DNA from: Gemmatimonadota bacterium
GTDB lineage: Bacteria > Gemmatimonadota > Gemmatimonadetes > Longimicrobiales > Gaopeijiaceae
Assembly: GCA_002724575.1 (NCBI GenBank)
Contig: PBPC01000091.1
Coordinates: 1-59,619 of the forward strand
Direction of reading: 5' to 3'
Length of the DNA: 59,619 bases
Positions 38,197 through 48,626 of this stretch are shown one piece after another (the stretch's first letter is position 1; each line of letters starts with the position of its first letter). The position numbers were made by a program, and so were the translations under genes. The notes beneath the pieces are model-generated. The model made no database searches, was not told the DNA's origin, and saw nothing but the letters and a program-made list of their open reading frames with translations.

Positions 38197-38562
38197 CTAC
38201 GATTCGTTAGAGACGTCCCAACGAGGCGCATCACCCCAAAGGTCCTCAAGCTGATAAAATATCCGTGCCTCAGGATGCAATACATGGACGACAAAGTCGA
38301 TGTAGTCTAACAAAACCCAACGGCCTCCTCGTATCCCTTCAATATGGCCTGGGCGGACACCCTCTACCTTTAGTTCATCAACCACGTGTTCCGCTATCGC
38401 CCTGACCTGCACATCTGAAGTTCCACTAACCAAGACAAAGAAATCTGTAGCTGTAGAGATTCCCCTGAGATCAAGCACAACGAGTTCGTGTGCCTTAAGC
38501 TCAAGCGCTAGGTCAAGAGCTCGGGTGACATCGGTAGGAAAGTCCACTGCTAAGACTTCCAA
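38197..38562 (-). CDS. rsfS: Ribosomal silencing factor RsfS
   Basis: Small factor (121 residues) that binds L14 and blocks subunit joining under starvation. The family motif LVVLDLRGISTATDFFVLVSGTSDVQVRAIA and the C-terminal EGIRGGRWVLLDYIDFVVHVLHPEAR are clear. The start is uncertain: a TTG at 38562 opens the frame, and a GTG at 38550 is another candidate. It lies 46 bases downstream of rplI. Confidence 0.93.
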   Translation of the reverse strand: MEVLAVDFPTDVTRALDLALELKAHELVVLDLRGISTATDFFVLVSGTSDVQVRAIAEHVVDELKVEGVRPGHIEGIRGGRWVLLDYIDFVVHVLHPEARIFYQLEDLWGDAPRWDVSNES

Positions 38563-39077: not shown

Positions 39078-40010
39078 CTAGCGCGCAGCTAACTGTTCCG
39101 AGCGCTTCCGAAAATCTAAATAGATATCCGCAATTCCGATTAGAATCGCACCGCCCAGTACTATCGGAGGAACGATAACCAAACCGAAAATCGTCATAGC
39201 GTAACCAAGAACTGAGAATCCCCCAGTTATGAATACGATGACAGCCGCACCACGCACGGCACAGAGTGCACCGATGAACACTACTGCATTAGATCCTACA
39301 CGCTGCAGTGGTTCACTCCATCGAGTGAATAGCAAGAAAAGCCCGACTACAAAGATCCAGATAAGATGATCATTAAAACGAAAGCTCTTAACCGATCCAA
39401 GTACTTCTTCACTCCTTCCAGAAAATAAAGTGAATAACCACCAAGAAAGGAGAAGTGCACTCATCGAAGCGAGAGCAGTCAAGGCTGGAAATATCAGAAC
39501 CTGCACCTCCGCAGTCTGATAAAGGGCCGAAATAAAAGCAGGAGTCAACCATTCACTACCACCAAGGGCAATAACTTGGGCAACCGTAGCTCTGACCCGG
39601 TCGGATATTACCCAATCCACAACATTCCAGGCACCGGGAATCAAGGTCATCAATATTACCAGAACCATTAAAGCCCCAAAGACAGCTTCAAGAGCACGAT
39701 CTGAGATCTTCATTCCTGGACGAACTATAGACAGCCCCACAAAGCTACCTCCCAGTAATAAGGCCCATCCACGCTCTAGGTACCACATCCCATCATATGG
39801 GCCAATCATCACAATGAGCATAGCTATCAGCGTGGCACTTAAAATCGCATACCTGTGAGGCAGGTTAGTCGCTACGAGTACAAGGAATGGGACTGCCACC
39901 AACACTGATGGCCTGGCTGTAGACGTTAAAAGCACGAGCACAAACAGCACACCAGCACGCAGCCAGTCACTTTTCCGGAAGACTGATGCCCTCCGTGTCA
40001 GATCTGGCAT
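39078..40010 (-). CDS. DUF2232 (YybS-like) multi-pass membrane protein
   Basis: A 310-residue integral membrane protein with about 8-9 hydrophobic helices. The C-terminal helices (VLGYAMTIFGLVIVPPIVLGGAILI) and the location between rpsR and rplI match DUF2232/YybS. The function is unknown. It is 9 bases downstream of the fused S6-S18 gene and 16 bases upstream of rplI, so it is probably cotranscribed with them. Confidence 0.78.
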   Translation of the reverse strand: MPDLTRRASVFRKSDWLRAGVLFVLVLLTSTARPSVLVAVPFLVLVATNLPHRYAILSATLIAMLIVMIGPYDGMWYLERGWALLLGGSFVGLSIVRPGMKISDRALEAVFGALMVLVILMTLIPGAWNVVDWVISDRVRATVAQVIALGGSEWLTPAFISALYQTAEVQVLIFPALTALASMSALLLSWWLFTLFSGRSEEVLGSVKSFRFNDHLIWIFVVGLFLLFTRWSEPLQRVGSNAVVFIGALCAVRGAAVIVFITGGFSVLGYAMTIFGLVIVPPIVLGGAILIGIADIYLDFRKRSEQLAAR

Positions 40011-40019
40011 AAAGTCAGG

Positions 40020-40709
40020 CTATCCCTGGTGGCTACGTGTGTAAGGCAACAAAGCCAGATAGCGTGCACGCTTCACTGCTCGTCCTAATTGCCTCTGGAA
40101 CGCAGCAGTCACTTTTGTCGTGCGCTTGGGCAAAATCTTCCCCTGTTCAGTAACGAAATTGGAAAGGGTTCCCACATCCTTGTAGTTCAAGGCAATAATT
40201 GGAGGTCCTTCCATACGTTGGCGGCGCCCCCGTGGACCCGTAAACTCTGGGGGGCCAGATACTCGATGCTCAGATTCAGTATCTTCACCATCTTCCTCTT
40301 CACCTAGACCAGGTTCAGCATCGGTCGGAGGCTCTTGCTGATCATCTCCATCTTCATTTTCGTCTTCATCTTTGATTCTCTTTGGCCGAGGCTCTCCCAT
40401 TATAGAGTCTCCCCCAGTAGGCTCTCCTTCGTTGAGAACCAAGAGATAGCGGACGATATCATCATCTAGCTTGAGCATCCTTTCATACTCCGGTAACGCT
40501 TCCGGTACCGCAGTAAAATGGGCTGCCACGTAATAACCTCTAGACAGCTTATTAATTGGATACGCTAGCTGTCTGGTTCCCCAGTGATCGATTGCCGAAA
40601 CTTCACCACCCTTGGAGGTTGCCAGCTGGTGAAGGTGATCGAGCTTGGCAGTGATAGCGCTTTCTTCAAGCGCGGGGTCGAGAATGTAAACGACCTCGTA
40701 GAGTCGCAT
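40020..40709 (-). CDS. rpsF-rpsR: Fused ribosomal proteins S6 (bS6) and S18 (bS18)
   Basis: One uninterrupted 229-residue frame joins two ribosomal proteins usually encoded separately. S6 occupies about 1-97 ([38 protein letters not shown]). A linker of about 50-60 residues (about 98-158) is very acidic around 113-145. S18 occupies about 150-226 ([39 protein letters not shown]). S6 and S18 form a heterodimer on the 30S platform. An in-frame ATG at 40400 (residue 104) has a strong GGGGGAG Shine-Dalgarno seven bases before it, so free linker-S18 may also be made. The main start ATG at 40709 has GAGGGA eight bases upstream. No ssb gene lies between the two halves. Confidence 0.93.
40398..40415 (-). 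promoter_or_regulatory. Internal Shine-Dalgarno and ATG inside the S6-S18 fusion
   Basis: On the minus strand GGGGGAGA (40408-40415) precedes an in-frame ATG (40398-40400) by seven bases. Initiation here would give a 126-residue protein made of the acidic linker plus S18. It may be a relic of an ancestral separate rpsR start, or an active second start. Purine-rich stretches can occur by chance in codons, so activity is unproven. Confidence 0.5.
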
Positions 40710-40716
40710 GATTTGT

Positions 40717-40732
40717 TCCCTCGGTCCGTAGG
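40717..40732 (-). promoter_or_regulatory. Possible S6:S18 autoregulatory leader element plus ribosome binding site
   Basis: Just upstream of the fused gene the leader reads CCTACGGACCGAGG (40719-40732), with the GAGGGA ribosome binding site at its 3' end (40717-40722). Known rpsF leaders in several phyla contain a conserved CCG bulge bound by S6:S18. The ACCG here is reminiscent, but I could not fold the RNA. Treat it as a hint only. Confidence 0.25.
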
Positions 40733-40816
40733 TTTGTAACGGGCCCCGTCGATTCAGCCAATATCATTGCGAGAGCGGCTACCCACGGAGCGGGATGTCT
40801 GTTCTTGTAAACATCA

Positions 40817-48555: not shown

Positions 48556-48626
48556 TTGGCCCGGGTGGATTCGAACCACCACCGCCGGTTCCAAAGACCG
48601 GTGTCCTGCCATTAGACCACGGGCCA
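48556..48626 (-). tRNA. tRNA-Gln (anticodon UUG)
   Basis: A 71-base cloverleaf can be drawn by eye. The acceptor stem TGGCCCG pairs fully with CGGGCCA (7 bp). There is a 3-bp D stem, and an anticodon stem CCGGT/ACCGG with loop CTTTGGA, giving anticodon TTG. The T arm is GGTGG-TTCGAAT-CCACC. The U-A first pair is typical of glutamine tRNA. CCA is not encoded. Confidence 0.95.

Follow-up and report, generated by a model that had tools for sequence, protein, structure and literature searches.

Ribosomal proteins S6 and S18 form a classic pair in the assembly of the 30S subunit. According to PMC4647458, dimerisation precedes rRNA binding, and the S6:S18 dimer acts as a repressor of its own operon; the rpsF leader bound by S6:S18 is described as widespread (PMC4647458, PMC10931766 and PMC7247131), and published leaders have a bulged CCG flanked by a stem and a hairpin (PMC10931766). 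The CxxC...CxxH motif of bacterial S18 binds zinc, as stated in PMC11791143, which also cites work on C- bS18 paralogues without this motif, for example in mycobacteria. Ribosomal proteins joined to another protein in a single frame are known from the bifunctional signalling protein/L9 (NCBIfam NF011110) and from ubiquitin-RPS27a/RPL40, where the partner is not ribosomal.

In contrast to these two cases, the gene described here joins two direct ribosome partners. It was found in the window, the whole 59,619-nucleotide stretch that was analysed (contig PBPC01000091.1 of assembly GCA_002724575.1, from a Gemmatimonadota bacterium of the Gaopeijiaceae), and runs on the minus strand at 40020..40709, from an ATG at 40709 to a stop at 40020-40022, as one continuous open frame of 229 codons encoding 229 amino acids (S6-linker-S18). 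In its domains and gene order, with rplI two genes on, the fused rpsF-rpsR gene corresponds to the rpsF-rpsR-rplI operon with its separate rpsF and rpsR, but it encodes one chain instead of two. The next gene downstream is a membrane-protein-like open reading frame of 310 amino acids (39078..40010, minus strand) without any Pfam or NCBIfam match, followed on the same strand by rplI for ribosomal protein L9 (38609..39064; Pfam and NCBIfam) and rsfS for the ribosomal silencing factor (38197..38562; Pfam). No S6-S18 fusion was described in the titles and abstract beginnings of the open-access literature, searched with partial coverage, in agreement with the earlier note's suggestion that the fusion may be new; S18 was not mentioned in the searched part of PMC7203096. 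Automatic annotation in protein databases may already assign two domains to the fused proteins.

Both halves of the protein were recognised by profile models. Pfam Ribosomal_S6 (PF01250) matched residues 4-91 (40437..40700, minus strand) with 95.1 bits against a cut-off of 27 and spanned the whole domain, while Ribosomal_S18 (PF01084) matched residues 172-221 (40047..40196, minus strand) with 71.5 bits against 21; the NCBIfam equivalogs for S6 (TIGR00166, 79.3 bits) and S18 (TIGR00165, 72.8 bits) also exceeded their curated cut-offs, placing the protein in both bS6 and bS18. Eighty residues separate the Pfam edges, and about 66 of them (the acidic linker, residues 92-157; 40239..40436, minus strand) precede a basic stretch that we take as the N-terminus of S18, so that the linker of about 55 residues proposed from the first inspection was about right, as was its richness in Asp and Glu (23 within residues 96-155). 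Residues 153-165 (40215..40253, minus strand) hold a PPEF.G motif as well as the basic stretch GRRQR, with P153, G161, R163 and R165 invariant in 28 rows; of the 108 distinct fused frames, 105 have a PPEF-type motif just ahead of the basic S18 N-terminus, and the three that lack it, L086, L091 and L171, are all of one genus. The chain aligned with the fused protein for residue numbering is presumably E. coli S18, whose numbering fits. In this alignment K60, R63 and K24 of E. coli S18 correspond to K213, R216 and K177 of the fused S18 core, all three invariant among 28 fused proteins. Since K60 and R63 are rRNA contacts and K24 belongs to the S6 interface (PMC4647458), the fused protein keeps contact residues of separate bS6 and bS18.

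A single match to the fused protein was obtained in the window's genome (E up to 1), and a profile search found one S6 and one S18 there, both in the fused gene. S6 and S18 were single-copy in all 26 genomes tested, 15 of which are fused, and no second gene for either was found in these or in the window's genome. Across the window's family (f1), 116 of 121 genomes, the window's included, matched the fused protein, and in 109 of them S6 and S18 lay in one stop-free frame. The remaining 12 comprised five genomes without a match, three loci cut by a gap or contig ends (a run of N inside the linker in G002; contig ends in G122 and G125), one frameshift where the linker is repetitive (G105), one genome with distant genes and two, G103 and G104, in which S6 and S18 are truly separate genes. 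The distant genes, unfused and 30% and 40% identical, lie on a 4-kb contig of G034 (L085, contig C9) that is probably foreign to this genome.

The window comes from a draft genome (2.4 Mb in 100 contigs, 88.7% complete), and the frameshift in G105 and the N-gap in G002 both fall in the linker; loss of the stop codon through an assembly or binning error therefore had to be weighed. Against it stand the 109 family genomes with one frame, five of them assembled as a single contig (G008, G026, G028, G090 and G095), and an error shared by all is excluded because the full-length-matched relatives outside the window's genus are only 55-75% identical. We rejected the artefact and give it practically no credence. 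Closer relatives, Gemmatimonadota metagenome-assembled genomes such as UBA1120 (placed by NCBI in Gemmatimonadales, unclassified), UBA1142 and UWMA-0308, shared 86-90% identity with the fused protein. The natural fusion that the earlier note had read from this one locus, and for which it had asked that close relatives share the joined frame, was thus borne out with both domains complete. The S6-S18 fusion is inherited across a family, an unusual change to a conserved part of the ribosome, and can serve as a family-level marker for this branch of the Gemmatimonadota.

Phylum-wide, 383 of 395 genomes (f1 included) matched the fused protein. In families f2 and f3 of the same order, 23 of 24 genomes gave two matches each and one gave none. 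When 25 loci from six other families were read (six from f2, three from f3, three from f4, two from f5, six from f7 and five from f9), the S6 and S18 frames were separate in all of them. G302 gave the only near-full-length match outside f1 among the matches listed, and a stop lies between its domains. Judged from the two matches in most of the genomes listed and from these 25 loci, the fusion probably does not occur elsewhere in the phylum. Outside the Gemmatimonadota the search covered a plasmid collection, in which 61 records matched; among the matches listed, two covered at least 80% of the query, and both were unfused. A Halomonas replicon carried S6 and S18 as two genes with two stops between them, and plasmid record H49 had separate rpsF and rpsR by annotation.

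For the origin of the fusion, rpoB was sought in 30 genomes and a tree of 26 was obtained, leaving out G034 and G035 (no match), G103 (179 residues only) and G261 (match in pieces). All 17 family rows with the fused gene, including the frameshifted G105, fell on one side of a branch with support 97/97, and the unfused G104 and eight genomes of six other families on the opposite side; several deeper forks within the family were weak. The fewest state changes on this tree was one (G105 unscored). From this branch and the single change, the simplest reading takes the two separate genes of G104 as the ancestral condition; G103 is absent from the tree. The earlier note was silent on this single origin, as on the loss of the zinc motif and the conserved leader described below. 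The junction was inspected in 22 of 27 unfused loci, and in 18 the start of S18 overlapped the S6 stop or was no more than 4 nt from it; the distance was about 11 nt in L106 and larger in three f9 loci. The S6 tails of unfused loci were acidic, and in G103 and G104 S18 is in frame with S6, three bases past its stop. The simplest way for the fusion to have arisen is that the S6 stop was lost, because here only three bases lie between the end of the acidic tail and an S18 start in the same frame; we infer that this loss alone would yield a fused frame from such an arrangement. The linker probably derives from the acidic C-terminal tail of S6.

In 107 fused frames the stretch taken as linker had a median length of 43 residues (31-173). 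Its Asp/Glu content had a median of 41% and was never below 17%, and the median of its net charge was -15; it varied in length and sequence yet stayed in frame. Substitution rates were computed for 10 close pairs, six of them among four genomes of the window's genus (two further listed pairs were dropped, one being of unfused loci and one having no entry after removal of identical frames). Both domains had a dN of 0.00-0.04. The linker had a dN of 0.08-0.25, which was below dS in eight of the 10 pairs, above it in L002/L003 (0.106 vs 0.08) and without a defined dS in one. The linker is under loose constraint and the S6 and S18 domains under tight constraint.

AlphaFold2 gave a mean pLDDT of 76 and a pTM of 0.66 for the window's protein (with 28 fused proteins), and 77 and 0.69 for a second member (with 26 proteins). 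The S6 domain of the window's protein reached a pLDDT of about 93-95, and most of the linker was under 50 in both models (residues 112-161 in the window's), consistent with disorder. In a Foldseek search with the whole model, the S6 half was matched in the 50 rows listed, for instance by 2j5a, 1ris and 1lou, and solved S6 chains alone reached a TM of 0.36-0.40 of the query in these rows. The higher pTM of both models (0.66 and 0.69) therefore suggests that the models position S18 with respect to S6, and on this basis the fusion may pre-assemble the pair.

A long and variable linker of low model confidence, in which a conserved motif and Arg-rich residues directly precede the S18 core, would also suit a precursor from which proteolysis within the linker releases ordinary S6 and S18, as in the eukaryotic ubiquitin-ribosomal protein fusions, and the frame alone is compatible with this. 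However, no protease or site is known for an S6-S18 linker, and the basic stretch needs no cleavage to explain it, because the S18 N-terminus of unfused relatives has one too. We consider such processing unlikely, and an uncleaved chain is what we predict.

Another way to free S18 would be its separate synthesis, additional or predominant, from a start codon inside the fused frame, such as the ATG at residue 166 in the window, which would give an S18 of 64 amino acids. In 64 of 107 fused frames there is indeed an ATG, GTG or TTG among the 35 codons that precede the S18 core, and 32 of these 64 had a Shine-Dalgarno-like tetramer upstream, a count that carries no chance control. On the other hand, the remaining 43 frames had none within 35 codons, and nine of the 107 had no start-type codon at all between the two cores. 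At the place of M166 itself the codon was ATG in 33 frames, GTG in 8, TTG in 1 and a non-start codon in 64, with one unlocated; with start-type codons in only 42 of 107 frames, an internal start was rejected as a conserved feature, and we regard this route to S18 as very improbable. S6, for its part, would always be made fused unless cut, because no stop lies between S6 and S18.

The claim that all signature segments are intact held for the S6 domain and the S18 core, but not for the zinc-type Cys motif found in S18 of close unfused relatives. No Cys was present in the last 75 residues (the S18 part) of any of the 108 distinct fused frames, so the fused S18, lacking CxxC...CxxH, does not belong to the zinc-binding (C+) form of bS18, whereas CxxC and CxxH were both present in S18 of G103, G104 and all 20 loci from f2, f3, f7 and f9. 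The motif is also missing from the unfused S18 of L173, L175 and L177, three of the five f4/f5 loci read. Fusion is thus not required for its loss; the two events coincide in this branch and are not bound to each other. The C- bS18 paralogues of mycobacteria likewise lack the motif, but the Cys-less S18 of these Gemmatimonadota differs in being the only copy found and in being fused to S6. A solved chain named 'S18 C-' was among the structures aligned with the fused S18.

Directly upstream of the fused gene, a putative S6:S18-type mRNA leader (CUCUC...CCCGU...ACGG-ACCGA-GGGA; 40717..40775, minus strand), recognised from a signature together with folds and a consensus of relatives, overlaps the Shine-Dalgarno sequence. 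The leader set comprised the 105 of 108 distinct fused frames with a clear start and 130 nt upstream (101 distinct 70-nt stretches). The signature CCCG[TC]...CGG-N-CC-NN-GG was present in 105 of 105 fused genes tested as against 28 of 21000 base-shuffled stretches, a contrast that speaks for conservation rather than independence because the pattern was composed after viewing the same sequences and the genes are related. Both unfused family members (G103 and G104) carried it, and none of eight f2/f3 leaders did, although a related hairpin occurs there and the S6 starts are less certain. In the predicted folds of many relatives, GCUCCGCC/GGCGGGGC and CCGU/ACGG each form a hairpin, a CC(G/A) stays unpaired, and the Shine-Dalgarno sequence is part of the closing stem. 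In the window's own minimum-energy fold the CC was paired rather than free, and in a few relatives, too, the first hairpin was unformed or the CC paired. A consensus of 22 hand-picked leaders showed the arrangement expected of an rpsF leader and had 15 pairs. Four of these varied in both partners, and all four belong to the first hairpin; covariation thus supports this one hairpin only, and the other two stems hardly vary. The element resembles the known S6:S18-binding rpsF leader in its position directly upstream of rpsF and in the CC(G/A) left unpaired in many relatives' folds. It differs in having a sequence signature of its own, with no relevant match in an Rfam 15 scan (E up to 10), and in a putative ligand that is one chain and not a dimer. 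By analogy, the fused protein likely represses its own mRNA through this leader.

Taken from sequence, our best reading is an obligate 1:1 S6-S18 unit that is predicted to stay uncleaved and probably still represses its own mRNA. The S6 stop codon would have been lost in an ancestor in which S18 began only a few bases further on in the same frame, and the acidic S6 tail would have become a flexible tether to the basic N-terminus of S18. Within the one chain both domains would then fold and associate with each other, and the resulting obligate 1:1 unit would bind the 30S platform. Acting on the conserved leader, in which the Shine-Dalgarno sequence is part of the predicted closing stem, the fused unit would also repress translation of its own mRNA. 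The S18 zinc knuckle, lost in the same lineage, may have become dispensable through tethering. That one polypeptide serves as both bS6 and bS18, pairs in cis and autorepresses via the leader is, in our judgement, probable. More tentatively, and with rather more doubt than belief, the family may have swapped a non-covalent, zinc-supported S6:S18 heterodimer for a single-chain, zinc-free module, whose acidic tether would stay on the 30S platform near the S21/anti-Shine-Dalgarno pocket and shield basic S18 before rRNA binding, the chain acting as a one-molecule autorepressor. With a single-chain S6-S18 and unfused members in one family, it becomes testable whether dimer formation limits assembly, what role the acidic S6 tail plays and whether tethering frees S18 from zinc.

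We also considered a loss of RimK after burial of the S6 C-terminus, which was unsupported: RimK scored above its curated cut-off in three of 15 fused and none of 11 unfused genomes, with the unfused G252 falling 6 bits short and weaker matches to the RimK model in other genomes. RimK-type glutamate ligases of fused genomes lie at G095:C1:1819902-1820774, G022:C31:143669-144547 and G008:C1:3065870-3066739; their substrate may differ, as S6 has no free C-terminus in these three genomes. Since bS21 was present in 26 of 26 genomes, it does not distinguish fused from unfused ones; three S21 matches were seen on contig C1 of G261, a single-contig genome of the same class. Elsewhere in the window, the sole Rfam match at gathering level was a tRNA gene at 48556-48626 on the minus strand.
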